Of a DNA stretch of 27,130 bases, positions 4,171-25,624 are shown piece by piece. The notes under the pieces are model-generated. The model saw nothing but the letters and a program-made list of their open reading frames with translations. It was not told the origin of the DNA and ran no database searches. Origin of the DNA: a virus; IMG/VR virus record IMGVR_UViG_3300045256_000458, positions 1-27,130 of that record. The stretch is one strand, 5' to 3'. Numbering within the stretch: position 1 is the first letter of the stretch; each line of letters starts with the position of its first letter. The translations under genes and the position numbers were made by a program.

Positions 4171-4445
4171 AGTATTTTTGGATCATAGCTGTTTACCTGA
4201 TTTTGTTGGGAGTGGTAGTCAACGCGGAGGATCGCGGTATTACCAAAGTTCCGGAAGGTCATCTTGACAAGGAGCGAATCAAGCCGCTCACTCCGGGCCA
4301 AACTTTCGACCTGTGCCAGGAGTACTGTTTCCAGCAAGGCAAGAACGCGAGCGATTCAATCCTGATGGCGGACCAACAGCACTTCGCCTGCGGATGCGGG
4401 CTGCGAAGGATCGAGGAAGACGATGTGCAAGGTAATACACGTTGA
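4167..4445 (+). CDS. small secreted or periplasmic Cys-containing protein (92 aa)
   Basis: Translation starts at a TTG (4167) in a TTGA overlap, eight bases after AAGGAAG; no in-frame ATG offers an alternative before the mature part. Residues 1-20 form a classical Sec signal peptide (MKYFWIIAVYLILLGVVVNA), with cleavage predicted after VNA. The mature part is short and polar, with four Cys (LCQEYC and FACGCG), which could form disulfides in the periplasm. Base composition returns to G+C-rich within this gene. A role at the host envelope is likely, such as an inhibitor or lysis accessory; the exact role is not known. Confidence 0.65.
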   Translation: MKYFWIIAVYLILLGVVVNAEDRGITKVPEGHLDKERIKPLTPGQTFDLCQEYCFQQGKNASDSILMADQQHFACGCGLRRIEEDDVQGNTR

Positions 4446-4668
4446 TTTTCGCAAGGAAGAACCGCCGGTCGAGGACAACGAGGTTGATGACCTGTACTTC
4501 CTGAACGAACTGCCGGACCTCGGCTGGTTACCGTGGGCAATTAGCTTTGTAACAAGCAGTTCAACAACAAGGCCAAAGAAGAACTTGACGCACTAAAAAC
4601 ACTTGGACGGACTGCGGAGTGACCTGCTACGCCTTGAGTGGATGATGAAGACCTACGAGAACAAGTGA
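4423..4668 (+). pseudogene. frameshifted small coiled-coil protein gene
   Basis: The ATG at 4423 overlaps the end of the preceding gene and reads MCKVIHVDFRKEEPPVEDNE through LPDLGWLPWAIS, then shifts at a TTT run near 4533. The second segment, one frame over, reads LCNKQFNNKAKEELDALK. A second shift at the AAAAA run near 4595 leads to LDGLRSDLLRLEWMMKTYEN and TGA at 4666-4668. Left as it is, the first frame ends at TAA 4594-4596 after 57 aa. Repaired, it is an about 80-aa protein with an acidic N terminus and a helical, probably coiled-coil, C terminus. The continuous coding signal through all three frames is the evidence. Function is unknown. Confidence 0.5.
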
Positions 4669-4680
4669 TTGATATATAGC

Positions 4681-4796
4681 GTTAGGAGGAGTAAGATCTC
4701 GAAGATAGATTAGCGATATTGAACCCTATTTCCTTGCTTCGCATGGACAAAAACGAACGATCCCTGCTTCTTGGCAAACAAGAGAAGATCACGTGA
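4681..4796 (+). pseudogene. start-less ORF behind an orphan ribosome site
   Basis: The exact 14-base copy of the strong ribosome site (4681-4694) is followed by GAT rather than a start codon. The open frame from 4695 reads DLEDRLAILNPISLLRMDKN and goes on to QEKIT and TGA at 4794-4796, overlapping the next GTG. Only internal TTG (4719) or ATG (4743) codons are available, too far from the ribosome site. It looks like a micro-gene of about 34 aa whose start was lost. Confidence 0.3.
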
Positions 4797-4981
4797 GCCT
4801 GCGCAAGTTCATACTGCGGTACCTGAAGAAGCGCCGCATGGAGCGGGAACTACAGCTTCTAGCCCAGACCCTAAGCACGAGGGCTGAGTGGCCGAACGAA
4901 CGGTGGCGCGGACTCACGATCAACCATTATCCAGACGAGTATGCTCGTAAGTCCGACAGAGCGTTCGAGGTGAAGCGATGA
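4793..4981 (+). CDS. small basic hypothetical protein (62 aa)
   Basis: A GTG at 4793 follows AAGAGAAG and overlaps the previous frame's stop. The protein begins MSLRKFILRYLKKRRMEREL, a strongly basic amphipathic helix, and continues with a second helix and an Arg/Trp-rich patch (AEWPNERWRGLTINHYP). Such a basic helix could bind nucleic acid or the inner face of the membrane. No family is recognised. The stop overlaps the ATG of the next, broken, gene. Confidence 0.5.
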   Translation: MSLRKFILRYLKKRRMERELQLLAQTLSTRAEWPNERWRGLTINHYPDEYARKSDRAFEVKR

Positions 4982-5190
4982 GGAGAATCAAGGCACAATA
5001 TCAACCTGAAGACGTTGGAACGAAATAGCAAAAGGTTGAACCGCGAGGACATTAAGCGCATCATGGACGATGCCCAGTCGCTCGGTCAGAACTGCGGCGG
5101 GTGCGAGATCTGTCACATGACCTTCTGCGATTCGCGTACGGTTACGAGCAGGCGAAACTAGGGCCGATCAAGGTCGAACCGAGCAGGTAG
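4978..5190 (+). pseudogene. frameshifted small zinc-binding-type protein gene
   Basis: The ATG at 4978 overlaps the previous stop and reads only MRRIKAQYQPEDVGTK before TAG. One frame over lies clear coding signal: HNINLKTLERNSKRLNREDI through CGGCEICHMTFC. A second shift at the TT in GATTCGCG then gives FAYGYEQAKLGPIKVEPSR and TAG at 5188-5190. Removing one A near 4990 and adding one T near 5133 restores a protein of about 70 aa. The CxxCxxCxxxxC cluster suggests a zinc or Fe-S site. Function is not known. It is the last plus-strand gene before the convergent junction. Confidence 0.5.
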
Positions 5191-5205
5191 CGTTAAGGGT
5201 CCTTA

Positions 5206-5246
5206 TTGGGACATTAAGGCGGGAATTAAGACGTTAAGTGTCCCAA
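5206..5246. repeat. inverted repeat at the convergent gene junction
   Basis: TTGGGACA (5206-5213) and TGTCCCAA (5239-5246) are perfect complements, and the pairing extends outward by A/T and inward by TTAA/TTAA with one bulged G. TTAAG occurs four times between 5193 and 5238. The hairpin lies exactly between the last plus-strand gene (ending 5190) and the minus-strand gene ending at 5256. It has no clear U-tract on either side, so a bidirectional terminator or protein site are both possible. Confidence 0.5.
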
Positions 5247-5255
5247 TCAGGGCAG

Positions 5256-5455
5256 TTACGACCGCACTCGCACATCGAAGTGGTCCTTGTGGTAGGTCTA
5301 GGTGACGCCCCGGTCGTTGGTCAGTAGCACGACGTTCCATTCCAGAAGCAACTCGGCTTCGTAGTACTTCCCGACCGTCAGCGACAGCTCTCCGCTGCTG
5401 TCGTCGACGCACAGGATGCGCTGGGTTCCGAGAGATGTGTGGTTTTTTTGTCCAT
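5256..5455 (-). pseudogene. frameshifted small protein gene with internal amber codon
   Basis: Read on the minus strand, an ATG (5455-5453) lies just behind AGAGG. MDKK is followed by a run of seven A; adding one A gives MDKKNHTSLGTQRILCVDDS, then LTVGKYYEAELLLEWNVVLL, TNDRGVT, an in-frame TAG (5300-5298) and TYHKDHFDVRVRS before TAA (5258-5256). The amber sits where Gln would fit. Repaired, the product is 66 aa. The plan (ILCVDD, then a strand, then VGKYYEA) resembles small phage proteins with an SH3-like barrel. It follows the structured region on the minus strand, which would form its leader. Confidence 0.5.
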
Positions 5456-5470
5456 GATCCTCTAAAGTTC

Positions 5471-5805
5471 AGCTCCGGCTGCCCTGTCTTACGGGGTCGA
5501 ACGTCCTTCGCCGCCGCAGTCAGTTACCCGACTGAAGCCGGAGCTTATACCGCGGTTGCAGGTAAACGTCTTGCAAGGCGCAAGTTTTACTCCGCGGTAA
5601 ATTTAAAATTTATCCCCTCCCTGCTACCCGTCGATCGGGTTTGCCGATGGCTTTAACCACCGTGCTGCTCTTCGCTGGCTAAGCGGGCCACCGAGAGGGG
5701 AATATGCGCTTGCGGCGCAACCTAAGTTGAACCCCACCGGCGGGCGCTGAACCGCCGGTTTCACCTTCGGGGAATACCCCTATAGGCCCGGCCTGGATCT
5801 GGCCG
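5471..5805. ncRNA. candidate large structured noncoding RNA
   Basis: This stretch has no convincing gene but is packed with perfect complementary segments: 5471-5480 with 5536-5545 (10 bp), stacked on 5520-5524 with 5531-5535; 5548-5555 with 5592-5599 (8 bp), enclosing 5562-5567 with 5584-5590 (one bulge) and 5570-5574 with 5580-5584; 5598-5603 with 5607-5612; 5626-5630 with 5636-5640; 5697-5700 with 5732-5735, enclosing 5705-5709 with 5715-5719; 5736-5743 with 5752-5759 (8 bp); and 5769-5772 with 5777-5780. This is too regular for an ordinary spacer. The minus strand is favoured because it would lie between the ParB-like gene and the 66-aa gene in the same direction. I cannot match it to tmRNA, RNase P, a group I or II intron, or an omega RNA, and no TnpB or IscB gene is present. 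A 73-codon plus-strand ORF inside it shows no protein-like pattern. Confidence 0.5.
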
Positions 5806-5822
5806 TTAGAACACCTGCAGCG

Positions 5823-6575
5823 CTACACCGCCTCCTTCTCGTTGCGATACTCGAACTTGCGCAATACGTCGATGCGGCGAGTCGGGTTCAGGTGAGCGTT
5901 GTACACCTCGGCGAGCATCAGCGCGCCGTCGCGGAAACTGTTGACAGTCGTCAATTTGTGCTCCGCGATCGCGTTGAGCCGGCGGACGAAGTGCTTGTGG
6001 TCGTACGCCTCGTGCTCGATCAGCGTGAGCAAAACCTGGATGAACTTGACCGCCTTGATCTTGCGGGCGAACACGCCGTCGCGAACCTCGATCAGGGACT
6101 TGATCGTTTCCCAGCGCTTCTTGAAGGTCAGGAAGGTCTTGCCGTCGATCTCAAGCGTACCGTCCAGGAGCGTGTTGTAACGCTTCGAGGTCATCCTACC
6201 GAACAGGAGCACGTGCAACGCCCCGGTGCTCAGCCCCGTCTTCTTTTGCAGGTTCACGAAGGTGTGGTAGCTCTCGTTGCCGCAGTTGTCGAAGAAGTTC
6301 ACGAAGTTCTGAGTCGTCCACGGCTTATGCAAGCGGTGCGCGTGCATCACGTCAACGGTCTTCGCGTCCTCGGAGATGAAGTACTTCACTGGCAGCCCGG
6401 CGAGCTTGGCGGCTTCAAGGCGATGATGGCCGGAGATGACCTTCAGTTCCCCCGTGTTTCCGCCAGTGACCTGAATAGGTTCCTGCTGGCCGCGCTTCAT
6501 GAAATCCTCGGCCAAGTCCTTTACGTAAACTCCTTGATAGACACAATCATACACCAATTGGATGCGATACGTCAA
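5823..6575 (-). CDS. ParB/sulfiredoxin-like protein (250 aa)
   Basis: The protein contains the ParB N-terminal (ParB/Srx) signature: YQGVYVKDLAEDFMKRGQQE followed by IQV, ELKVISGHHRLEAAKLAG (the GHHRLEAAK box at residues 49-57) and LPVKYFI. In this superfamily the fold binds nucleotide (CTPase in true ParB, nuclease or ATP binding in others). The remaining 170 residues are helical, with a helix-turn-helix-like stretch (KKTGLSTGALHVLLFGRMTS) that probably binds DNA. The TTG start at 6575 overlaps the stop of the upstream nuclease gene (TTGA), so translation is coupled. The stop is TAG. It could regulate transcription, segregate DNA or cut DNA or RNA; a partner ParA was not seen in the window. 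Confidence 0.75.
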   Translation of the reverse strand: MTYRIQLVYDCVYQGVYVKDLAEDFMKRGQQEPIQVTGGNTGELKVISGHHRLEAAKLAGLPVKYFISEDAKTVDVMHAHRLHKPWTTQNFVNFFDNCGNESYHTFVNLQKKTGLSTGALHVLLFGRMTSKRYNTLLDGTLEIDGKTFLTFKKRWETIKSLIEVRDGVFARKIKAVKFIQVLLTLIEHEAYDHKHFVRRLNAIAEHKLTTVNSFRDGALMLAEVYNAHLNPTRRIDVLRKFEYRNEKEAV

Positions 6576-8020
6576 TAAGGGGAATTATTTAGCCGACGAA
6601 ACACTAACTTTACCTTACCGCAATCCCATATCCTGACCAAACCGTCAGCCTCAGCGTGTTTACTCTCCGTCATCCCTGGGGGAGTTCCCGCCCGGCTCTT
6701 CTTCCTCGATTGCTTGGAAACTGCTTTCCCGGACGAGGTGGCGTAAAAGTAATCGGGAGGTAAGACGTCGGTTTTTATCCATCCGGCCGCAAGGTACCCC
6801 CTGGCCTGGCTCTTGGCCAAGTCTGCCCATGTGTACAAGTCCCGCCCAAACTTTCTTGAAGCCATGAGGGACATCTTGGATAACGCGCCAGATACGGTCG
6901 TTCCGTCCCTAAACGCAAATCGATTCAGGATGATCTCGCTGCCTCCCCGCCTGTGGTGTGCACCGAAGGTGGCGACCCCCAGCAGTTGTCCGTTCTTCTC
7001 GCACGCTACCGCATACCTCAAGGACCTAGGGGCTCCTTGAACGTGGTACGCTTCAAGAAACATCCTGGCTTCAGGCCCATCGCATTCGCGGAAAACGCAC
7101 TCACGAGCACCGATACGTTCAGTGTTGGCCCCTAGAGCAGACCTAAGGAATGACTTTACTTGAGGTTTTCTGTATTTCCATTCGTGCTCAAACACGTGCA
7201 GCAGTCTTATACCAGCAGCCTCGCATTTATTCGTGCGGTCTCGGTGGAAGTTCCTGGGCTTAAACTTTTCGCTATGCCAGTACAGGCCGTTAAACTCTAC
7301 GCCTACGCGAAGAGACGGGATGAATACGTCTAACTCCATCGTTCCTATCTTATGATGGCGAATTGCATCAGGAACAACCGACAGTACGTACTCGAACAGT
7401 TCCTTCTCTCCTTCGGACTCAGCGTAACCTGGGGCAGGTTTACCGGACTGGCGACCGGTTATCAGGTCATTAGGTCTACATTTAAACCATCCGCGACCTT
7501 CCCTACTGTCAAAGAACGAGCATTTCTTGCTGCTATCAAGGAATTCTTTGATCTCAGTGATGTGAGGGTACTTGGACCTAACGTGCTCCAACATAATCTC
7601 GGAAGAACGCTTCTGGCGCTTGTTCAGGCGGGGATGACCGGACTGATTACCCGTCATCAAGTATATCGGCTTAGCCGAGAACCATCCCCCGCCTGCGCGA
7701 GCGTCGAAGAACAGGCATAGTGAACCGGTGTTGGTGAAAGAGCGCTGGTCTATCTCGGACACGTACGGAAACCGCTCTTGGATTTTGCGTAAAACCTCGG
7801 TGCACGATAGTTTTCGTCTAGGATTGTAGTAGGGATGTCCGGAAGTTTGGCCACTAAGAAGGTAGACGGGCTTCGTCTCGAACCAGCCGGCGTTCGGCCG
7901 ATCGTCAAAGAATCGACACCTTGTCTGAGTATCGCGGTACGAGGCCGTATCGATCTTCGTGACGTGGGGGTACTTGGTCGATATCTTGGATAATACTTCT
8001 TGGACAGATAGTTTTTTCAT
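6572..8020 (-). CDS. VSR/EDxHD-type homing-endonuclease-like protein with triple N-terminal repeat (482 aa)
   Basis: Residues 4-70, 71-137 and 138-200 are three copies of one module: a helix (VLSKISTKYPHVTKID), then CxFFDxRxxxGWF, a KPxYL and a GxxSGHP end. They are probably DNA-reading units, like the repeated DUF723 modules of phage homing nucleases. Residues 201-290 hold the nuclease core: LDVFIPSLRVGVEFNGLYWH, then FHRDRTNKCEAAGIRLLHVF and EHEW, matching PD-(D/E)XK/VSR-type enzymes (D231, E242, H259 candidates). The C-terminal third (EAYHVQGAPRSL, GVATFGAHHRRGG, RFAF) is the GNAT-like domain seen in this family. The gene begins 28 nt after the tail-tube terminator, suggesting insertion there. 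A weak TATCAT -10-like box precedes it. The precise cut site is unknown. Confidence 0.75.
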   Translation of the reverse strand: MKKLSVQEVLSKISTKYPHVTKIDTASYRDTQTRCRFFDDRPNAGWFETKPVYLLSGQTSGHPYYNPRRKLSCTEVLRKIQERFPYVSEIDQRSFTNTGSLCLFFDARAGGGWFSAKPIYLMTGNQSGHPRLNKRQKRSSEIMLEHVRSKYPHITEIKEFLDSSKKCSFFDSREGRGWFKCRPNDLITGRQSGKPAPGYAESEGEKELFEYVLSVVPDAIRHHKIGTMELDVFIPSLRVGVEFNGLYWHSEKFKPRNFHRDRTNKCEAAGIRLLHVFEHEWKYRKPQVKSFLRSALGANTERIGARECVFRECDGPEARMFLEAYHVQGAPRSLRYAVACEKNGQLLGVATFGAHHRRGGSEIILNRFAFRDGTTVSGALSKMSLMASRKFGRDLYTWADLAKSQARGYLAAGWIKTDVLPPDYFYATSSGKAVSKQSRKKSRAGTPPGMTESKHAEADGLVRIWDCGKVKLVFRRLNNSPY

Positions 8021-8047: not shown

Positions 8048-8079
8048 AAAAAAGAAAAACCCAGCAGTTTCCTGCTGGG
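8048..8079 (-). terminator. strong intrinsic terminator after the tail tube gene
   Basis: On the minus strand CCCAGCAG pairs perfectly with CTGCTGGG around a GAAA loop (stem 8079-8072 and 8067-8060), followed by TTTTTCTTTTTT. This is a textbook rho-independent terminator, closing the virion operon 22 nt after the tube gene's triple TAA stop. Confidence 0.93.
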
Positions 8080-8100
8080 TCGTATAAGTGACTGTTATTA

Positions 8101-8726: not shown

Positions 8727-11513
8727 CTAACTGGCCGATTGTTGAACCTGCGAGATAGTGAAGTTGATAGGAACAAAGTATATTAAACCCGCTAATTTAG
8801 CTTCGACCGACACCCGGAGAGCCGGGCCGACGATCTGCGTGCTGGCGTTCTTGTAACCCTTCGGAGCGTCGTCGGACGGAGCCGTCCAGCGCAGCCGCAG
8901 GAAGTTCAGCATCTGGCCCTGCAGGAAACTCAGCGCGCCCTTGGCGGAGATCTGAGCGACCGACTGGCCCACCACCGCGACGTTGAACGCCTCGATCAGG
9001 GTCAGGGTCATGAGGTCCGCGACGTAGACAGCCTGCATGCTGTTGTAGACGAAGTTGTTGTCGACCGAATACGTCATCTGGTCGGACACCCAGCGGAAGC
9101 CCTGGTTGTTCGGCACGGGCTCCAGGATCAGGAGTCCGGCTTCCAGCGCATCTTTCCGGGCCGAGCGGCTCATCGGGTTGAAGTCGCCTTCCGGCTTGAT
9201 GACGGCCTGGACGTTCGCCTTCTTCTTGACGATGCCCTTGTAGCCGGCCGCAGCCTGCATGCCGAGGGCGACGATCGCCGCCATCCAGGGCTGGTACTGC
9301 GCGAGCGTACCGGCCGAGCTGACGACCTTGACGTCCTGAAACGCAAGGCCCATGCGGAAGCTGGAGAGGCTGGAGGCCGCCTGCTTCTGCTGTACGTAAG
9401 ATCCGGACCGGCTACCTACCGCGAGGCGGTTCATGCCGGTCTCCTCGTTGCTCATCAAGATGCAGTGCGAGTTGAGGTACGCGTTTACCGCGTCGATGGT
9501 GTAAGTGGAAGTCGGCTCGGTCTCACCGTTCGCGATGTCGACGGATGCGTCGGCAGAGATCAATGCCGTGATGAAGTTGGTCTGAACGCCTTGCGCCGCG
9601 TCGATGCCTGCAACGAACTGCGCGGAGGTCGTACCGGCTTTCAAGCCGCCCGACAAAAACTGGTCGGGTACAGTCACTTCGGGCAAGCCGGACTGACCCG
9701 ACTGCTCGTTCGCGACGGTGGCGAGCTGGCTTGCCGCCAGCGCGTTGAGCCACGCCTGCGCATCATACTTGATGCCGGCCGGCTTCGCCGCGAGGTCGGA
9801 GCTGAGCCCGTAGGTGCCTTTGTCCAATTGGGACGTCGACACGTTCGCCCACTTCGAGGCCGACAGCGCGGCGCTAAAGGTGGACTGGCTGTTGACGTAG
9901 CTGACGAGCTGGCTCAGGGTCTTGAACTGGGCGAAGCTCGCCGAGAAGATGATGGAGGAGCCGACCTTGAAGTCGATGCCGCTTGCTCCGACCACCGCGG
10001 TGGCGCTAGCCTGCGAGCATCCGATCGTGAGCAGGATGTCGCCGCCGGCCTTGAACGAGGCGGAGCTGGTATCCTTGCTGATCGTGAACAGGTTGACGTA
10101 CTCGGCGGCCGAGCGAAGCAGCTGGTTACCGAAGGCGCTCGCGGTCTGCGAGGCGCCGTCCCACGCGATCGGGGACAAGTCACCGATGACTTCCATCGAC
10201 TTGGACAGGCCGTCGATGACGGGCTTCATGACGATGAAGGGCTGAGTTCCTTGCGTGATCGGAGACGCTACGTTCTGCGAGCCAGAAGTTCCAGCATTAC
10301 CGTTTGACAGGCGACTGATCGACGCGGTGGTCGAAGTGCTGCCAGTAACCTGGTAGAAGCCAGCGATCAGGCCGGCAAAGGTGGAACCGAGCTTCAGGAT
10401 GTCGCCTACGACGGGCTGCGCGGCCCACGCCGCAGGAGCGGTGATCACCGCAGTCGAACCGCTGATGACGGTCGTGAAGCTTCCGCTCAGGCCAATCGTG
10501 GACTGGCGATCCTGGCCCGTCTTGTTCTGGATCGAGATCGGGGTGTAATCGATGATGTCGTTTTCGCCAACGCTCACCACAGTGGCGGAAACGGACGCTA
10601 CCGCCGGAGCACCGGACGGAGCGTTGATGCGCTTGATGGTGATGGTCGAGCTGGACGGACCGGGGCTTACCGCGGTGACGAGGTACGCTCCGCGGTTCTG
10701 GCCGATACCGCCGATCAGGGCGGAATCAGCCGCAGCGCCGAAGTCACCGGTCGCGGGGATCACCACGGTGTCGCCGATGGACGGAACAGAAGCGAAGGCC
10801 GAGGACAAGGTGATGGTCAAGGTCGAAGAGTTGATCGCGGTAGCAGCGATCGCAACGCCGTTCTTGCCCTGAAGCGGGAGAACCTGCGAGGCGCCAGACG
10901 CGAGCGTTCCGTTGGTAACGTTCTCGACCAGGGCCGCAAACGCCGGACCGGAAGTTACCTGAGCGACGCTGATGGTAGCTTTCGCTCCGCCGTTCTGACG
11001 CAGTGCCATGCTGACCGCCGACGACGAGTAATGCGGGACGTAGGAGAAAGAGCCCGTGGTCGGAGCGATCTCGGCGACCGAGACCTCCGAGCGATACTTG
11101 ATGAGGTTACCGGGAGCACCGGCGCGAGCCGCTTGAAGCAGCGCGTAGGAGCCGAAGCCGGGGCGAGTAAGGACAGCCTGGGCCTTGACGGACGGGTTCG
11201 TCTTGATGATCTTCACCAGGGAGACCGCGCCGGTGATGGCGGGGTCGTTCGCGGCGACAACAATCTCGCGGAACGCGTCCACGATGCGGCCGGTGCCGTA
11301 CTTCTGCTGGACGGCAGAGATCTGATCGGGGCCGAAGGCGTTCTGGTTCAGGTCAGCTTCTTGAGTAAAATCCGGACCTTCGTCCGCTTCACCGACAAGC
11401 GTCACGATGCCGGCAGCAGCGGAGTTTGAAGAGTTGTTGATGACCTGGACATTTACGTACGTCCCCGGATCGATCAGGACAAGGCCGGAATCTGTGGTGT
11501 AAGACTGAGCCAT
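8727..11513 (-). CDS. contractile tail sheath protein (928 aa)
   Basis: The sheath surrounds the tail tube and contracts during infection. The N terminus has the sheath start pattern (PGTYVNVQVINNSSN, then VTLVGEADEGPD). The C-terminal 300 residues carry the conserved sheath core: NGETEPTSTYTIDAVNAYLN, MGLAFQDVKVVSSAGTLAQY, QPWMAAIVALGMQAA, then GFRWVSDQMTYSVDNNF and ALRVSVEAKLAGLIYFVPIN. At 928 aa it is much longer than T4 gp18 (659 aa). The extra length is Ser/Thr/Gly/Ala-rich and beta-like, including two related segments (about 228-297 and 352-402) that probably form surface-exposed insertions. The ATG follows GGGAG. It ends TAG TAA. Confidence 0.93.
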   Translation of the reverse strand: MAQSYTTDSGLVLIDPGTYVNVQVINNSSNSAAAGIVTLVGEADEGPDFTQEADLNQNAFGPDQISAVQQKYGTGRIVDAFREIVVAANDPAITGAVSLVKIIKTNPSVKAQAVLTRPGFGSYALLQAARAGAPGNLIKYRSEVSVAEIAPTTGSFSYVPHYSSSAVSMALRQNGGAKATISVAQVTSGPAFAALVENVTNGTLASGASQVLPLQGKNGVAIAATAINSSTLTITLSSAFASVPSIGDTVVIPATGDFGAAADSALIGGIGQNRGAYLVTAVSPGPSSSTITIKRINAPSGAPAVASVSATVVSVGENDIIDYTPISIQNKTGQDRQSTIGLSGSFTTVISGSTAVITAPAAWAAQPVVGDILKLGSTFAGLIAGFYQVTGSTSTTASISRLSNGNAGTSGSQNVASPITQGTQPFIVMKPVIDGLSKSMEVIGDLSPIAWDGASQTASAFGNQLLRSAAEYVNLFTISKDTSSASFKAGGDILLTIGCSQASATAVVGASGIDFKVGSSIIFSASFAQFKTLSQLVSYVNSQSTFSAALSASKWANVSTSQLDKGTYGLSSDLAAKPAGIKYDAQAWLNALAASQLATVANEQSGQSGLPEVTVPDQFLSGGLKAGTTSAQFVAGIDAAQGVQTNFITALISADASVDIANGETEPTSTYTIDAVNAYLNSHCILMSNEETGMNRLAVGSRSGSYVQQKQAASSLSSFRMGLAFQDVKVVSSAGTLAQYQPWMAAIVALGMQAAAGYKGIVKKKANVQAVIKPEGDFNPMSRSARKDALEAGLLILEPVPNNQGFRWVSDQMTYSVDNNFVYNSMQAVYVADLMTLTLIEAFNVAVVGQSVAQISAKGALSFLQGQMLNFLRLRWTAPSDDAPKGYKNASTQIVGPALRVSVEAKLAGLIYFVPINFTISQVQQSAS

Positions 11514-11792: not shown

Positions 11793-13376
11793 TTACTTCT
11801 TTCCGGCTTTCGCCTTGCCCGCCTCTTTACCCAACTCCTGCTTCTTGATCTGCCCGTGCATCTTCAAGGTGTTGTGCGCGTCGGCCAACGCTCCGCGGAG
11901 CGTGGTACCGTAGCCGATGTCCTGACCGGTCTTCTTGTGGGCGATCGCCCAGTGTCCGCGGGGATCCTTCATCCGGGTCGCGTGGACTTCATGGCCGCCG
12001 ACGCTGTAATGCTGCTTGTTCTTACCGGCTTTCAGGCGCTTGATCGCGACCGCTTCTCTCGGAGCCGGTTCTTCCTTCTCCATCTCGGCTTTCGGTAACT
12101 TGGGGGCCGGCATCGAACGGAGTTCGTGGAGGACGCGCTTGTGAGAGTGGCGCTCGGACGGTTCTTTACCGCCCCAACCACCGCCAGCGCGGGAGTGCCC
12201 AGGTAACCCAACTACCGGCTTATGTACGCCCTTCTGTTCGTCAAAGCGATTGACGTAGCTGCCCTTGCCGGGGTTAACCTTCTGGTTTTTCTCCATCTCA
12301 GCCTTCGGGAGCTTGGGGGCCGGCATATCCTTCAATTCTTTGTGGACGCGACGATGTTCCTGATTTGCCCATTGGTGCTTCTGGCGAGCAGCGATGCCCG
12401 CGAGCGAGGAACCTGAGCCGCGGAGTTTGTTGCCTTTCTCGCCCCAAGGCTGGTGAACACCCTTCTCTTCCTTTTCCATCGACGGCTCGGCCGCGACGAT
12501 GTCCTTCTTCAGGAAGCGAGGTTTCCAATCCTTTGCCAGGTCGGCCTTGCACATCTCGGACATCGACATCGAGTTCTCGTAGCTCGGCCGATCGGGAGAC
12601 ATCTCCTGCTCGACGCTTTCTTGGTCGTCCTTGCCGAGGTAACCCATGTCGGCTCCGCCGTACGCGCCTCCGGCCGCAGCTTTCTTCATGAAACGCGGCT
12701 TCCACTCGGACATGACGTCCTTGCGGATATCGATCTTGTGGCCTTCCTCGCGCTCCGCGGGAGCGTTGGCGATCATGTGATCTTCGACCAGGTGCTCGAC
12801 GTCTTCGCCGAGCTGGGCATCAGCCTTTTCGTCCGGGTTACCCGCCTTCGCCATGCACTTGCACATGGACTTCTCCATCCCGCACTTCTCGCACTCTTCG
12901 GCCTTGCCGATCGCGCGCTTAGCGGGCGAAGATGAAGCTGCGGCAGAAGCCGGATTCTGAGAAAGGTGATGGAAGATGTTGTGGCTGCCCTTCTGGTTGA
13001 TCATGAAGTCGTGGTAAGCGTGGGTGCGATCGTCGGGTAACCGCTTCTGATCAAAGTTTTCGGGATTAACGAAGTGTCCGGAAACGACCTTGCCGTCGTT
13101 GCCGGTAACGCGGAACATGTTCTTTGCGCGAAACTTGGTGTCGTGGGTCGGATATACACCGCCCACCTTCATCTCGTGGATGCCGGCTACGGGCTTACCG
13201 AGCTGGTGCGTTCCGTGGCCCGAACCGTGCCAGACCTGGTCCTGCACGGCGGAAGCGGGGTGACGCACGGGAATGGCTTTCGCCAGCTTATCCATGCTCT
13301 TAGAGATGGTGCCGGGAGACTTGGATTCGATCTCAAGCATCCCCTTGGCGAGTTCCAGCAGTTCTTTCTCGTTCAT
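11793..13376 (-). CDS. basic modular virion-associated protein with KGVH repeats (527 aa)
   Basis: Residues 60-130 form a small domain (VGGVYPTHDTKFRAKNMFRV, then GKVVSGHFVNPENF). A Cys cluster follows (CEKCGMEKSMCKC, 162-174), likely zinc-binding. Two WKPRF(M/L)KK motifs (225-232, 284-291) follow. Two copies of a longer module occupy 305-363 and 382-434; each begins KGVH(Q/K)P and ends MPAPKLPKAEMEK. The last domain (450-510) reads HYSVGGHEVHATRMKDPRGH and ADAHNTLKMHG. The protein is lysine-rich and largely disordered between domains, as expected for internal virion or injected proteins. It lies between the metallopeptidase and tail genes. No enzyme motif was seen. The function is unknown; a DNA-binding or scaffolding role inside the particle fits the charge. 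Confidence 0.7.
   Translation of the reverse strand: MNEKELLELAKGMLEIESKSPGTISKSMDKLAKAIPVRHPASAVQDQVWHGSGHGTHQLGKPVAGIHEMKVGGVYPTHDTKFRAKNMFRVTGNDGKVVSGHFVNPENFDQKRLPDDRTHAYHDFMINQKGSHNIFHHLSQNPASAAASSSPAKRAIGKAEECEKCGMEKSMCKCMAKAGNPDEKADAQLGEDVEHLVEDHMIANAPAEREEGHKIDIRKDVMSEWKPRFMKKAAAGGAYGGADMGYLGKDDQESVEQEMSPDRPSYENSMSMSEMCKADLAKDWKPRFLKKDIVAAEPSMEKEEKGVHQPWGEKGNKLRGSGSSLAGIAARQKHQWANQEHRRVHKELKDMPAPKLPKAEMEKNQKVNPGKGSYVNRFDEQKGVHKPVVGLPGHSRAGGGWGGKEPSERHSHKRVLHELRSMPAPKLPKAEMEKEEPAPREAVAIKRLKAGKNKQHYSVGGHEVHATRMKDPRGHWAIAHKKTGQDIGYGTTLRGALADAHNTLKMHGQIKKQELGKEAGKAKAGKK
12075..12464 (-). repeat. two tandem copies of the KGVH...MPAPKLPK protein module
   Basis: Copy one is encoded at 12464-12288 and copy two at 12233-12075 on the minus strand. 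Both start KGVHxP, contain a glycine-rich stretch and a His/Arg helix (HRRVHKELKD and HKRVLHELRS), and end MPAPKLPKAEMEK. A full single copy lies at 23963-23754 in the 649-aa protein, and a KGVHQP copy lacking the MPAPKLPK end begins at 13624 in the metallopeptidase gene. Confidence 0.8.
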
Positions 13377-13396
13377 CGTACCCTCTGCCTGAAGTA

Positions 13397-14830
13397 TTAG
13401 GCGACCGGGAAGCCTGATTTTTTCTGAGGTTTTGGGTCCATGGCGCTGGCCGAACGAATGTAACCGTGGCCCGGATAAATCTTCTTCGCTTCGGCGGTGA
13501 CCCGCTTTACCTCTGAGTGCGCGGCCTGTTTGTTCGCTGCCGGATCACCATAGTGCATCGCGCCGCGGACGTTCATCCCCATGACGGAGCGGCCCATGCC
13601 AGCCAGCGGCTGGTGCACGCCCTTTTGCTGGGTGTGACGAAACGCGGTGCTGCGAAGGTGTTGGCGAAGTCTCTGGTGCTGCGGACCTTGCACACCCATG
13701 TGGCGCTCGACGCGGTTAGCTTTTTCCAAGCCCTTGCGCGCGATCTTCCCCTCGTTGCGAGAAACCGACCTGGCCGCAGCGACGGCGTCCTTTGCCCGAG
13801 AAAGAGGATTCAAGTGCCTGTAGGAAGGCGTAGCACCGGTAACCCTAGAAACCGCATCGTCTATGTGGTTGAAAACTCTCTGAACGATGTTTGAGCGCCT
13901 GTGCTCGCCCATCGCCTGTCGAGCAGAATTAATGCGAACGTTGGATTTTCGCATCTCGGACGCGGCAAGCTTTGCCGGAACTTTCCTAGTCGGAGCTTTG
14001 CCGGCGCTGCGCTTAAGGCGCATACGGAACAGCTCGCGGGCGAGCTTGTGCGCCAGTTCCTTGTCGCCGCGCTTGCGCGCTTCGATCACGGTGTCGATGG
14101 TCGGCCGCGTGCGCCAACCCTTATCCGGCGAGTAAGTTGCGCGGGGCGAGTCGCGAAGCTCCAGCATCTGCCGGGTTTCGGGCGACAAAACTTCCTTGCC
14201 GGCGGTCAGGTGCCGGGTTCCGATCGCGGGGTTACCCTTCTTGTCCTTGGTCTTGACCGGGGTGCCGGGGTAATCCTTCGTGACCAAAAGTCCGGGCTGG
14301 TCGGCAGCGTAGCGCTGCTCGGGACGGACGACGTCGCGCATCTTCTGGTGAGCTGGAAGCCCCAGGCGACGGCGCAGGTGGTTCTCGATCGCGGTCGCCT
14401 CGTACTCAGGCTTACCTCTCGACTGCTGCTTGTAGCCGATCCCGCCGCGCTCGACGGGCTGGTTCTGTCGCCCGTAAAGATCGTCCATCCAGTCCTGGAA
14501 ATCGGACAAGGACATCTTGTCCGGAGCATGCATGATGTGGCCGATCTCGTGGATCAGGGAGTCGGGGTTACCGATGTGCTCGATGTAGCCCGTGCGAAGA
14601 TCGGGCTTGTCGATGATCTTGCCGGCCTTGTTCTTCTTACCTGGAGCGCGACGAACAGGGGTGTTCAGCTTCCGCTGAGCAAAGTCCGAGATCTGCTGGA
14701 TCTGACGCTCGCGCTGGGGAGAATCAGGCTTGGTCTTCCAGCCGCCGAACACCTTCTCGCGCTGGGCGCGGACGTTCTTAGATTTTGCGAGTTGGCGGGA
14801 CTTGCTCAGTAGGTTTCTGAAGTAGCTCAT
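13397..14830 (-). CDS. virion-associated HExxH metallopeptidase-like protein (477 aa)
   Basis: Residues 91-100 read SLIHEIGHIM: H94, E95 and H98 form the zincin HExxH motif. A downstream EYEATAIENHLRRRLGLP (142-159) can supply the third zinc ligand, as in phage 'polyvalent protein' metallopeptidases. The N terminus is basic (LLSKSRQLAKSKNVRAQREK). The middle and C-terminal regions are lysine/arginine-rich helices and linkers, and the C terminus has the KGVHQPLAGMG module (from residue 403). Such proteins are thought to be packaged and injected, where they cut host or phage proteins. It lies in a run with the ADP-ribosyltransferase-like and GNAT genes. The substrate is unknown. Internal proteolysis of the virion is an alternative role. 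Confidence 0.75.
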   Translation of the reverse strand: MSYFRNLLSKSRQLAKSKNVRAQREKVFGGWKTKPDSPQRERQIQQISDFAQRKLNTPVRRAPGKKNKAGKIIDKPDLRTGYIEHIGNPDSLIHEIGHIMHAPDKMSLSDFQDWMDDLYGRQNQPVERGGIGYKQQSRGKPEYEATAIENHLRRRLGLPAHQKMRDVVRPEQRYAADQPGLLVTKDYPGTPVKTKDKKGNPAIGTRHLTAGKEVLSPETRQMLELRDSPRATYSPDKGWRTRPTIDTVIEARKRGDKELAHKLARELFRMRLKRSAGKAPTRKVPAKLAASEMRKSNVRINSARQAMGEHRRSNIVQRVFNHIDDAVSRVTGATPSYRHLNPLSRAKDAVAAARSVSRNEGKIARKGLEKANRVERHMGVQGPQHQRLRQHLRSTAFRHTQQKGVHQPLAGMGRSVMGMNVRGAMHYGDPAANKQAAHSEVKRVTAEAKKIYPGHGYIRSASAMDPKPQKKSGFPVA

Positions 14831-15574: not shown

Positions 15575-18346
15575 TCAGTCTCCGTTCTGCCCCTTGAACA
15601 GGTGGCGAACCTTGAACTTCTTGGTCTTGGTCCCCGGCTGCACGTCGTGCCCCATCGCCATGCTGGCGCGATTGGCAACGTCAGCGATCGCGCCTTGATC
15701 TAAAGCACCCTTATGGATCGGCTCTTCAGACTCCACCTCTGAGGGGTGGAACAAAGCGACCACGTTCGGTAGGTTAGAGCCAGAGTTCGAAAAACCATGG
15801 TAGCCCGCTTCCCGGATCTTGCCCAGGATCTTGTCGGAATTCCAGACGCCCTGGTTTTCTCTGACCGTTTGCTCGATGAGGCCGGCATGATCGTTTGCCA
15901 GGTCGTAGATCTTGTGTTCGGGCTTGAGAGACACGAAGTACTTGGAGCGAGCGGCGCCGGTCACGAGGTCTTCGGGCTTCGTGCCTTCTCGGTAAAAATA
16001 GGAGCGGGGGACCTCGGGCAGGCCGCGCTTGTACTCTTCCGACCGCACGCCCTTACCCTGGTGCTTAGGGTCGATCTGTTTCAATCCTTGGGTAGGAGAA
16101 TAATGGACGAGGCGAGCGGGAGCTGTCTTTTTGAGGGATTCGGTCTTTACTATCTTCTTGCCAACTTGATGTGCAAACTTTTGTGAATGTACCTGGTAAT
16201 CATGCGGTTCCACGATTACTTCATGCTCGCGACGTAATCGTTCACGAAGATCGTTCGGCTGTACAATATGCTTGAGTACAGAAACGACTTTTGATGCCGG
16301 TATCCATGCCGACGTGACGATACCGGTTCCGTGCCGGTGCGGACCATATTCTCCAAAAGCTTGAGCAACGTCCAAACTTGGAGTCCAGCCGACCCTTTGC
16401 GTAGACCGCTTAAGCATCACTGGATCTTTCGGGCCGTGACCTCTGTGTAACAGGAATTCATGCTCTCCGGTCTTTGGGTTTTTACGTACCGATGCCGCCG
16501 CGGCAAGCCGAGCGAGCGAGCGAGTGCGTATCCCGCCTTCCGATCGAGGTATGTTTGCCCTAGTATCCGCGAAGTTCGCTATCCAGTCCTGCGCAGCCTT
16601 TGAATCCACCTTTGATTGCTTTACGGGATGCTTAGATTGCCAGCTGCCCTTGTCGAGCTTCTCCGACTTCTTCATCGGGGTGACGTCGTTGTGGACCCAG
16701 TCCGGGAGCAGGCCAGCCTTCTGGTCGGCGTAGACCGTGTTGGCCGGATCCTTGCGGTTCTTCTCACCGTGAGGTCCAAAGTTAACCCAGGAGTTCTGTC
16801 CGCGCGTCTCGGTCGCCAACGCTTGCTGAGCGAGCGGCGAGTACATCTGCCGGTGCTCGTTCCAAGCGTTTTCCTCGCCTGTGTGGCCAAAGCCGTGACC
16901 TTCCTTCGCGTGTCCGAAGTAGTCATGCACGATGCGGAACATATCGTTCGCGAGTAAAGGTTTACCCTCGTGCTCCTCGCCGGTCGGGGCCAGCATCGGA
17001 TGGTCGGAACGGTTGTTGCTCGAGCCAAATCCCATCTCGGTCGGGTAGTACCAGAGGTGCCTGTTCTCGTTGACGTCGCGGTGGACATCCTTCGAGCCGT
17101 TCGGGTACGGGTTCGGCTGGCCCGGCTTCATGCGGGAGATCTTCAAGCCAGAGTTCTTGATGTGCTGGAACTGTTTCTTAGTCTCGTTGATCAAAGCGCC
17201 GTACGCGGCCTTCACCTTCGGATCGTTCGGCCGGTGAGGCATCTCGTGGTATGCCTGCGCGATGCGGGCGCCGCGGTTAGGGTCAACAGACAACTTCTGC
17301 GCAGGCTGGGGCGCGATGCCGGCCGATCGTAGGTAACCGTTAGCAACGTCGCGGACAGAAGCTTTCTTGCTTAAGGGTTCGCTCTTGCCTAGGCTTGCCT
17401 TGAAGCGGCCTGCTGACACAAACGGTTTCGTGTCGGCGCGAGTAACCTTGTATCCTTCGGGCGAGCGGGCCATGACCTCGAACGAGTCTCCCCAATGCTG
17501 GCGAGCGATTTGCCTTGCTGCGGCCGTAGCCGGATGCAGCGGGTTCGAGATGATTGAAGAATCAGCCTGGAGGTTGTGGCCGTCAGAACCGTGGTCTCTT
17601 CCTACGCCTACGGAAATCCAACCAGCTCCGAGAGCTTTACCGTAAGAATCGTCCGAGTATTTGTACGGATCGTGCTCGGGGCTTTGCTCGTGCAGCTCGG
17701 GATGATGAGCCTTCGTGTAGTCGTGGATCCACTCGTGGTGGTGCACGCCCTTTGGGACCTCGTGGAATTTTCCTTCCGGCGAGATGAAGCCCTTGGGTGC
17801 TTCAGCTTTGGTGAGAGCTTTGGTGATAGGCTCCGACTTCTTCGTTGCGCCGAAGTGCAGGCGAAAGCGCGCGGGGCCGGAGTTCGTATGAGTCAAAGAA
17901 AAGTCGTCGTCGAAGTGAGGCGCGATCTCGTGCTCGGTGCCGGTCTGCTCGTCATGGTGCTCGGTAGATGGGTGCGTCGGGATCAGCGAATGCGTCCCTT
18001 CCTCGGCGTGGATTACTGCCTGCTGGTTGTACTTGCGGCCGAGTTCGGTGGCCTGCTCTCGGGAGATCCCGTGGACCATGAAGCTCGGCTCGTGCTGTCC
18101 GCCCCACTGACCCATGAGAGGAGTCCAGCGGTGACCGGCGGACTGCAGATCTTGCTTGAACTTCTGGTAGTTGGCGGCGTTGGTCGCGGCATCGTCTTGC
18201 GCGCGGTACGGGGTCAGGAGGGCGTACTTACCGCGCTTTAAGTAGGCGGAAAGATGCTCGGGCGACTCGAATTCCTGGTGCTGCGGGTTCGGCCCGGTCC
18301 TAGGGAACGATCGGGCATGTAACTTGTGGAAGTAGGGGTGTGCCAC
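15575..18346 (-). CDS. multidomain polyvalent protein with ADP-ribosyltransferase-like domains (923 aa)
   Basis: Domains in order: about 30-125, DUF3293-like (KYALLTPYRAQDD, then EPSFMVHGISREQATELGRK); 185-315, a GFISPEGKFHEVPKGVHHHEW domain; 330-555, a phage domain with LWYYPTEMGFGSSNNRSDHP, FRIVHDYFGHAKEGHGFGH and ATETRGQNSWVNFGP; 595-720, an ADP-ribosyltransferase-like domain with the R-S-E layout (LLHRGHGP R635, WTPSLDVAQAF, REHEVIVEP with ExE 707-709); 743-870, a second ART-like or related domain (RLVHYSPTQGLKQIDP). ARTs move ADP-ribose from NAD to target proteins. The architecture fits injected phage effectors that modify the host at entry. The GTG start lacks a clear ribosome site and lies 10 nt after the previous stop. 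A single TGA separates it in frame from the GNAT gene. Confidence 0.75.
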   Translation of the reverse strand: MAHPYFHKLHARSFPRTGPNPQHQEFESPEHLSAYLKRGKYALLTPYRAQDDAATNAANYQKFKQDLQSAGHRWTPLMGQWGGQHEPSFMVHGISREQATELGRKYNQQAVIHAEEGTHSLIPTHPSTEHHDEQTGTEHEIAPHFDDDFSLTHTNSGPARFRLHFGATKKSEPITKALTKAEAPKGFISPEGKFHEVPKGVHHHEWIHDYTKAHHPELHEQSPEHDPYKYSDDSYGKALGAGWISVGVGRDHGSDGHNLQADSSIISNPLHPATAAARQIARQHWGDSFEVMARSPEGYKVTRADTKPFVSAGRFKASLGKSEPLSKKASVRDVANGYLRSAGIAPQPAQKLSVDPNRGARIAQAYHEMPHRPNDPKVKAAYGALINETKKQFQHIKNSGLKISRMKPGQPNPYPNGSKDVHRDVNENRHLWYYPTEMGFGSSNNRSDHPMLAPTGEEHEGKPLLANDMFRIVHDYFGHAKEGHGFGHTGEENAWNEHRQMYSPLAQQALATETRGQNSWVNFGPHGEKNRKDPANTVYADQKAGLLPDWVHNDVTPMKKSEKLDKGSWQSKHPVKQSKVDSKAAQDWIANFADTRANIPRSEGGIRTRSLARLAAAASVRKNPKTGEHEFLLHRGHGPKDPVMLKRSTQRVGWTPSLDVAQAFGEYGPHRHGTGIVTSAWIPASKVVSVLKHIVQPNDLRERLRREHEVIVEPHDYQVHSQKFAHQVGKKIVKTESLKKTAPARLVHYSPTQGLKQIDPKHQGKGVRSEEYKRGLPEVPRSYFYREGTKPEDLVTGAARSKYFVSLKPEHKIYDLANDHAGLIEQTVRENQGVWNSDKILGKIREAGYHGFSNSGSNLPNVVALFHPSEVESEEPIHKGALDQGAIADVANRASMAMGHDVQPGTKTKKFKVRHLFKGQNGD

Positions 18347-23300: not shown

Positions 23301-25241
23301 TTACTTGAAACGTTTTCCCGCGAGCAAGCTGGCTTTCAGGAGAAGCAGGAACATGCGCTGGGATTCCGGATCGGAGTCCTTCGCGAACACTACGCGCTGC
23401 TTCCCGTCTTGACCCTTCACGAGTTCCACGAACTTCTTCGGCTGGCCATCGTCGGCGACGGTCTCGGAGGCGAAGCACGCGCAGGGCGCAAAGCGCGGAC
23501 CGGTCTCGGACTTCTTGAACTCAGGTTCGCCGCAGGTCAGGCACGGGCTGTAGATCTCTTCGTCGGTAACCAGGAAACTCTTTTCGGACTTCTGGGTGGC
23601 CATGGCAGATTGCGCGGGCTTCGGAGCCTTCATCTGCGGCTTAGGCATGGTCGACTTCATCTTGGGCTGCGCCAGCTTCTTGTTGCTGGGAGAAGCTGAA
23701 GGAGCAGCGGCTACGGCGGGGATCGCCGAGGCAGCGCCCGTAACCATGCCGGCCTTGCCTAGCTCAGACTTCGGCAACTTCGGCGCGGGCATGCGCTTCA
23801 AGTCTCGGAGAACGCCTTTGTGTTTTTTCACCGCTTGGGCGGTAAACCGTTCGCCGCGCGCCTGTCTGGCCGACTCTCTGACCATGTGACCGGCGGGACT
23901 AACGCCTTCGCGGGTCTTGGAACCGGTGGTATTAGGCCAGTAGGCAGCTTGGTGCACGCCCTTCTCGTCGGCCTTGCCTAGTTCGGCGGCCGCCAGCTTC
24001 GTCGGGGACTTCTTGGACCGCAAAATGCGATAGATGTTGTTCGAGGACGCGACCTTGGCCTGGCGGATCTGATGGGCCGCGGTTTCCGGGTGGTCGCTGA
24101 AGGACTGGGCGCGGCGGGCGTAGTCGCCCATCTCGCTCTGTCCGGGGCGGCTGTCGCTGGCCGGAGCGTGCACGTCAGGCTGCATCGCGGAGGCAGCGCG
24201 CTTGCGGGTGCCGCGCATCCAGCGCTTGAAGCGCTGCTCAAGCTCCGGGTGGATGCCCTGCTTGTTGAACTCGTGCTCGTCGATCTTGGCCTTCTCGGTG
24301 TGCTCGGGCAGCTTCCCGCCCTTGTCGGCGTTCGAGAATTCTTTGCCAACCTTCTTTGGGATCCCGATGGTCGACTTGCCGGCAGCAGCAGCGTGCATCG
24401 CGCGGCGCTGGGCTTCGGATACAGGAGGCTTGCGAAGCTCTTCCTTCTTAACCGGCTTACCGTTGTGGTCTGTCTTGGAAGGATCTTGGGGTTTGCCGAA
24501 CTTTAGCTTGGCGGTACGACCGTTTAATTCAGCTTCCGGTGCCTTCTTTTGACCAGGCTTGATCTCTTCCTTGCTCACAGCGTGGGCCATGGCGGAGATG
24601 TCGTCGTCCTTGTCGGTCGACTTCTTGGACTTGTCGGCGCGCTTCTTGTCCGGGAGCTTCTGGTCTAATGGTTTCAGGTCGATCTCGGTCTGGATCGGAC
24701 CGCGGGACTCCTCGATGCTCGGGTCCGCGTTGCGGGCCGCCACGAGGTCCTTCTGGGTGTCGTACGGGTTCTTGTTGTCGCGCACTTCCTGGGAGTCGGA
24801 GTGCTCGGAATCCTCTTTCGCTTCGATCTTGGCCTTTACGAGCGTGGCGATCGCGTCGCCCAGGGACTTCTTGATCGGCTCGACCTCAAGACGGAGCTGC
24901 TCGCGGGTCGGTTTGCCTTCTAAGGTAGACGCAACGGCGCCGGCAACGGCCAAGTAGCCCGCTTCGTTCATACCGAGGTGCGACAAGGATCCGCCTACCA
25001 CGAGGTCGGAAGCGATTGAGCCGTCCTCGCGCTTCTCGAAGTAGCAGTCCGTGCTGGTGCCGGGGATCCGGAAGTAACCAGCTTCGAGCGGCTTCAAGGC
25101 GCTTGCGGTCTCAGACGCCCATTCGGCCACCGCTCTGGTAACCGCGTAGTGCGCTTTGGCACCGGTAACGCTCTTGGCAAGCAGGCGGTCGGCGGCCTGG
25201 TTTCCGATCAAAGCCTTCAATACGGTCTTGAGTTGTGCCAT
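23301..25241 (-). CDS. large lysine-rich virion-operon protein with KGVH module and C-terminal zinc site (646 aa)
   Basis: A GTG at 25250 is possible, but the ATG at 25241 has the better ribosome site (GAAGTGAG). Numbered from the GTG frame, residues 5-140 are a folded alpha/beta domain (LKTVLKALIGNQAADRLLAK, YFRIPGTSTDCYFEKREDGS). The middle (140-480) is a basic, low-complexity chain containing an IGIPKKVGKEFSNADKGGKL segment seen in other phage proteins. The KGVHQ module (430-499) ends MPAPKLPKSELGK. An Ala/Pro/Lys spacer follows, then a C-terminal domain with CLTCGEPEF and APCACF, a likely zinc site. The family is not recognised. The basic disordered design fits an internal head or packaged protein. 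Confidence 0.65.
   Translation of the reverse strand: MAQLKTVLKALIGNQAADRLLAKSVTGAKAHYAVTRAVAEWASETASALKPLEAGYFRIPGTSTDCYFEKREDGSIASDLVVGGSLSHLGMNEAGYLAVAGAVASTLEGKPTREQLRLEVEPIKKSLGDAIATLVKAKIEAKEDSEHSDSQEVRDNKNPYDTQKDLVAARNADPSIEESRGPIQTEIDLKPLDQKLPDKKRADKSKKSTDKDDDISAMAHAVSKEEIKPGQKKAPEAELNGRTAKLKFGKPQDPSKTDHNGKPVKKEELRKPPVSEAQRRAMHAAAAGKSTIGIPKKVGKEFSNADKGGKLPEHTEKAKIDEHEFNKQGIHPELEQRFKRWMRGTRKRAASAMQPDVHAPASDSRPGQSEMGDYARRAQSFSDHPETAAHQIRQAKVASSNNIYRILRSKKSPTKLAAAELGKADEKGVHQAAYWPNTTGSKTREGVSPAGHMVRESARQARGERFTAQAVKKHKGVLRDLKRMPAPKLPKSELGKAGMVTGAASAIPAVAAAPSASPSNKKLAQPKMKSTMPKPQMKAPKPAQSAMATQKSEKSFLVTDEEIYSPCLTCGEPEFKKSETGPRFAPCACFASETVADDGQPKKFVELVKGQDGKQRVVFAKDSDPESQRMFLLLLKASLLAGKRFK
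23754..23963 (-). repeat. third full copy of the KGVH...MPAPKLPK module
   Basis: It encodes KGVHQAAYWPN, a polar middle, then KKHKGVLRDLKRMPAPKLPK SELGK. It matches the two copies at 12075-12464 in order and spacing, although the host gene is about 10 kb away and otherwise unrelated. Confidence 0.75.
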
Positions 25242-25246
25242 GTGTC

Positions 25247-25624
25247 TCACTTCAGGTAGCTGTCGTCCACGATGATGTAACCGAAAACTTCTGCGTCGTC
25301 CGCGATCACCCAGAGGTTGGGGCCGGCGGCAAGGACCGTGTAGACTCCGGGCGGTACGGCGATGCCGTTGGCCGGACCAGTAGGCGCCGCGACAGAGCTG
25401 TCGGAACCGAACGCTACGTTATGAGCGCTCGTGCCGGAGTTCCAGATCGCGATCAACTTGCCGGGATCAGTAAGATTTTTTGCGGAGTCCAGCGCGCCGA
25501 TGGGGATCAGCTGTCCGAGGGTCGGCCCGAGCACCTTTACGGCGCCAGCCGGCTCGTTGTACTGTTCGTTGTGGATGCGGCCTATGTCTCGCATCCCGTC
25601 GCGCGGTTTCTGTCTCTCTGCCAT
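25247..25624 (-). CDS. small beta-rich structural protein (125 aa)
   Basis: The ATG follows GGGAG. After a polar start (MAERQKPRDGMRDIGRIHNE) the sequence is beta-rich: VKVLGPTLGQLIPIGALDSA, LIAIWNSGTSAHNVAFGS, GIAVPPGVYTVLAAGPNLWV and FGYIIVDDSYLK. The Ile/Val-Gly-Pro pattern, small size and lack of Cys recall phage capsid decoration or head-stabilising proteins. The gene is in the virion operon beside the 290-aa structural gene. Its stop overlaps the GTG of the following large basic protein. Confidence 0.55.
   Translation of the reverse strand: MAERQKPRDGMRDIGRIHNEQYNEPAGAVKVLGPTLGQLIPIGALDSAKNLTDPGKLIAIWNSGTSAHNVAFGSDSSVAAPTGPANGIAVPPGVYTVLAAGPNLWVIADDAEVFGYIIVDDSYLK

Follow-up and report, generated by a model that had tools for sequence, protein, structure and literature searches.

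Structured phage RNAs and the region downstream of the tail tube

Phages and prophages encode elaborately folded non-coding RNAs such as GOLLD and ROOL, which are often found near tRNA islands, and many GOLLD RNAs are longer than 800 nt (PMC12286853). In Myxococcus phage Mx1, the same-strand stretch after the tail-tube gene is occupied by a large tRNA cluster that includes a tmRNA, and a close relative of Mx1 (contig L049) likewise carries tRNAs and a tmRNA downstream of its tail-tube gene on the same strand. In the other relatives, this place was found to hold endonucleases and small genes, and RNA genes were few or absent in the DNA covered. The region downstream of the tail tube is a hypervariable slot that can accommodate RNA genes; an RNA at this place is thus reasonable, though this proves nothing. 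Phage tmRNA genes with distinct tag peptides were located in Mx1 (L014, 27328-27705), in L049 (6704-7069), and in another endonuclease-bearing virus contig (L013, 1079-1386). Those of Mx1 and L049 sit within the tRNA clusters. The annotation of the Mx1 record lists no tmRNA.

The window analyzed here is the whole of IMG/VR record IMGVR_UViG_3300045256_000458, a linear virus contig of 27,130 bases. Its tail sheath (8727-11513, minus strand) is 37% identical over the full length to the Mx1 sheath and 46-56% identical to those of 18 other virus contigs, and the tail-tube and other structural genes are common to the contig and its sheath relatives. These similarities assign the contig to an Mx1-like myovirus. 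Small genes on the plus strand reach ~4981 and minus-strand genes come down to 5823, so that 4982-5822 forms a convergent junction with little or no intact coding sequence. Along the minus strand, the tail operon is followed by a terminator that probably closes it, a homing endonuclease gene, a ParB-like gene, and, 18 nt from the ParB-like stop codon, the structured stretch at 5471-5805 (Table 1). The endonuclease ORF overlaps the listed parB-like ORF by 4 nt, and relatives of the ParB-like protein share 24-30% identity with it.

Several further observations were made on these genes. In the homing endonuclease, the nuclease part is accompanied by a C-terminal half with weak similarity to a Mom-like DNA modification protein (phrog_1384, E 2e-5). 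In related phages, 475-aa ORFs lie directly after the sheath gene (L015, 12904-14331; L016, 12907-14334), which suggests a repeated insertion site; by eye, the repeats and nuclease-like core of the L015 ORF look similar to those of the window's endonuclease. In the structural block, a 923-aa protein (15575-18346) contains DUF3293 together with an S-AdoMet-lyase-like match (PF23780, E 4.5e-6, just under the cut-off) and, judged from these matches, is possibly an injected anti-restriction activity. A short motif, KGVH[QK]P or similar, recurs in different proteins of this block (11793-14830 and 23301-25250).

Table 1 Positions of the predicted structural units and of neighboring features in the window.
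Feature	Position	Strand	Description
Strong separate hairpin	5194-5258		Between the convergent blocks; z -5.27 (plus), -4.18 (minus); inverted repeat I1; no T run
Broken small reading frame	5256-5468	minus	No start codon of its own; internal in-frame TAG; downstream of the stretch
Unit A, 75 nt	5471-5545	minus	10-bp closing stem AGCUCCGGCU/AGCCGGAGCU; pair probabilities 0.85-0.97
Unit B, 52 nt	5548-5599	minus	8-bp closing stem UACCGCGG/CCGCGGUA; pair probabilities 0.85-0.97
A/U-rich linker between units B and C	5600-5612	minus	Read from the sequence; unpaired in the fold
Unit C, 89 nt	5613-5701	minus	9-bp closing stem UCCCCUCUC/GGGAGGGGA enclosing three hairpins
Hairpin D	5736-5759	minus	8-bp perfect stem ACCGGCGG/CCGCCGGU, 8-nt loop; pair probability 0.98-0.99 on both strands
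Hairpins E (5763-5787) and F (5789-5805)	5763-5805	minus	Pair probability 0.95-0.99 on the minus strand
ParB-like protein	5823-6575	minus	phrog_12305, PHROGs E 2e-17
Homing endonuclease	6572-8020	minus	phrog_3339, PHROGs E 5.6e-71
Intrinsic terminator	8058-8081	minus	10-bp stem, T-rich tail

Fold of the stretch and its strength against chance

The long stems listed in the preliminary description were all found, at 5471-5480/5536-5545 (10 bp), 5548-5555/5592-5599 (8 bp), and 5736-5743/5752-5759 (8 bp), and so was the direct stacking on the 10-bp stem, which is abutted by the hairpin at 5517-5534. This hairpin has a GUAA (GNRA-type) loop and, together with a smaller arm (5491-5516), fills the interior of unit A, which folds with a z of -3.25 on the minus strand and -3.15 on the plus strand. 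Unit B is a single arm in which 5-bp and 5-6-bp helices continue beyond the closing stem (z -2.91). In unit C (z -3.42), the closing stem has a pair probability of 0.92 and the inner hairpins 0.59-0.79. The part at 5702-5805, which contains hairpins D, E, and F, folds more weakly (z -1.81); E and F come just 3' of the ParB-like stop codon. The closing stems of units A, B, and C reach a pair probability of at least 0.92, and of at least 0.86 when 5150-5830 is folded; hairpin F competes with other pairings in that longer fold.

Read 5' to 3' on the minus strand, the order is F, E, D (5805-5736), C (5701-5613), the linker, B (5599-5548), and A (5545-5471). The same long stems are kept on the plus strand, where 5471-5606 gives a z of -4.36, so that this strand too folds well and the choice of strand is tentative. 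It falls on the minus strand for two reasons: there the whole gap between the neighboring frames folds better, and the stretch lies directly downstream of a minus-strand gene.

We found that the stretch folds better than all 100 of its dinucleotide shuffles on both strands (z -2.88 plus, -3.67 minus), as the preliminary description had led us to expect. The boundaries at 5471 and 5805 had been picked there after the stems were seen. The gap at 5456-5822 served as an unselected interval, set without regard to the stems, and gave a z of -2.65 on the plus strand and -3.57 on the minus strand, with none of 200 shuffles as good on either. Under the same procedure, the Mx1 tmRNA scored -3.13 on its own strand and -1.80 on the opposite strand, and a plain Mx1 spacer scored +0.4. 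Segments of 335 bases across the contig had a mean z of -0.2 (sd 1.2). Five of the 216 other segments, counting both strands, scored -3.4 to -4.2, so that a z of about -3.7 is uncommon on this contig, not unique. The folding signal of the stretch is moderate, not extreme.

The stem density had been described as far above that of an ordinary spacer, which did not hold in general. Only stems of at least 8 bp were enriched, with 3 observed where shuffles average 0.35 (three or more occur in 5 of 1000). The shorter stems, of 4-6 bp, did not exceed chance: there were 23 perfect stems of at least 5 bp against 18.0 in shuffles, a count reached by 43 of 300 shuffles, and 4 of at least 6 bp against 4.8.

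Known RNA classes, coding potential, and relatives

The preliminary description had placed the stretch in no known RNA class, and an Rfam search of the whole window at the gathering score agreed with this, giving no match. GOLLD, ROOL, OLE, HEARO, and group I and II introns had no Rfam match in the window at the gathering score or, in a lax scan of 5100-6000 (E up to 5), in the stretch itself. The lax scan returned a single isrG match, just outside the stretch, which is spurious. Like GOLLD and ROOL, the stretch is a candidate elaborately folded non-coding phage RNA; it differs from them in lacking an Rfam match and in its length, 335 nt against more than 800 nt for many GOLLD RNAs.

The tmRNA model RF00023 found nothing at E up to 10 (it detected 14 of 14 controls), and the tRNA cloverleaf model RF00005 found nothing at the same threshold. 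ARAGORN detected no tRNA or tmRNA in the stretch, and a profile of three tmRNAs had no match in it. In a T-loop scan of 5471-5805, the TTCRANY loops had at most 2 of 5 stem pairs and thus formed no T-arm. A tRNA or tmRNA identity was rejected on all of these results.

Between ~5470 and 5780, the codon statistics of each of the six frames were close to zero or negative, which bears out the earlier view that the stretch holds no convincing gene; it is non-coding. Downstream of it, the broken small frame has a codon-usage signal at 5242-5362 and a weak phrog_4927 match (E 0.016). An ATG at 5453-5455, directly downstream of the stretch and preceded by AGAGGA, is out of frame with the small frame, and its use would need a frame change within a run of seven A. 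In this phage TAG is a true stop codon, as it terminates the sheath, ParB-like, and other genes; recoding of TAG, by which the ParB-like or the small frame could continue into the stretch, was rejected on this ground. Other small frames on both strands of 4423-5470, such as plus 4982-5158, also appear frame-broken, apparently through real decay or assembly indels.

We searched for relatives of the stretch through the ParB-like, sheath, tail-tube, endonuclease, and early genes, and found no copy of it among the relatives reached in this way. Blastn against GenBank phages and plasmids found no similar DNA, and single exact patterns from the stretch were absent from IMG/VR (a 17-mer) and from GTDB contigs (a 20-mer). 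When compared as DNA with the complete records of 18 sheath- or endonuclease-related loci, the stretch gave chance matches of 12-18 bases only, and nhmmer found no copy among 128 loci, including 80 of ParB relatives. A single-sequence covariance model had no hit among the ParB loci apart from the window itself and none in 20 phage records; it spans 5471-5606, half of the stretch, and has little power at a distance. These searches leave room for diverged homologues.

Candidate readings of the stretch

The description of a structured, non-coding, unclassified stretch beside the ParB-like and homing-nuclease pair was supported. We consider a non-coding, phage-encoded structured RNA without known relatives to be its most likely single reading, at somewhat less than an even chance. 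This is favored by the minus-strand fold of the whole gap (z -3.57, matched by 0 of 200 shuffles), by three stems of at least 8 bp where 0.35 are expected, by closing-stem probabilities of at least 0.92, by the lack of a coding signal, and by the RNA genes downstream of the tail tube in Mx1 and L049. It is weakened by the lack of a homologue and of covariation, by the folding of the plus strand, and by the five other segments at z -3.4 or below. In a consensus scan of the minus strand, the stretch was neither immediately preceded by a promoter nor followed by a terminator, and this, like the scarcity of RNA genes in the searched locus of most other relatives, also weakens it.

Nearly as likely is an ordinary GC-rich spacer at a convergent junction, in which inverted repeats end or slow transcription from both sides and chance folding occurs in decaying sequence, with no dedicated RNA. 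The convergent layout, the adjoining broken frames, the lack of enrichment of short stems, and the other contig segments with similar z all fit this reading. The stretch resembles a bidirectional terminator or spacer of convergent phage operons in lying between converging blocks and in its inverted repeats, but it comprises several nested units in 335 nt and is nearly devoid of T-run terminators; there is only one weak plus-strand match (5570-5584), no more than shuffles give, and the whole gap beats every shuffle on both strands. The separate hairpin at the junction (Table 1) may serve as the end structure of the plus-strand block. Inverted repeats near their own gene are frequent targets of ParB-type proteins, and the stretch begins so close to the ParB-like stop codon that a DNA-level element, with binding sites for the ParB-like protein or a replication signal formed by inverted repeats in duplex DNA, was also considered. 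This is improbable: the stems differ from each other in sequence, no motif is repeated within the stretch, and the listed direct repeats pair single places with places inside genes. Iterons of the parS type were rejected, as no repeated or iterated inverted-repeat motif is present.

A structured 5' leader acting as cis-regulator of the small minus-strand gene, proposed earlier for a 66-aa product, would agree with the ATG and AGAGGA directly downstream and with some coding signal in that frame. The frame has no start of its own, needs the frame change, and holds an in-frame TAG, the codon that ends the sheath and ParB-like genes, and the proposal is therefore weak; we regard it as decidedly improbable. 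The least likely reading, now largely refuted, is that the Mx1 position is occupied here by the eroded remains of a tRNA/tmRNA cluster or by a tmRNA that has diverged strongly. The stretch resembles the Mx1 tmRNA (OR576727, RF00023) in lying downstream of the tail tube on the tail-operon strand, in its fold z-score, and roughly in length (~335 nt against 378 nt), and its units are about tRNA-sized. Unlike the Mx1 tmRNA, it lacks a tRNA-like end and a T-loop with matching stem, and neither the covariance model nor the profile matches it; the lax Rfam scan also found no tRNA or tmRNA.

For the structured RNA without known relatives, the minus strand is the most likely source, possibly as the 3' portion of the transcript of the ParB-like gene or as a product processed from it. 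Such an RNA would fold into three closed, tRNA-sized domains (75, 52, and 89 nt) with a few 5' hairpins. It would be a stable accessory RNA made during infection and acting in trans, encoded in the hypervariable region that follows the tail tube and that in Mx1 and its close relative contains the tRNAs and tmRNA. That this candidate is transcribed, from that strand, into a stable RNA acting in trans is inferred. That it represents a new class, a multi-domain non-coding phage RNA of ~335 nt that resides in the tRNA/tmRNA accessory region and acts in trans during infection, seems unlikely on present evidence.

As it stands, this is a single-sequence prediction for which an ordinary alternative exists, and a new phage RNA in the 335-base stretch is plausible, unproven. 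Should it prove to be transcribed and to be conserved in relatives not yet sampled, Mx1-like phages would have an RNA class in addition to their tRNAs and tmRNA, and these poorly studied phages would have a candidate effector.
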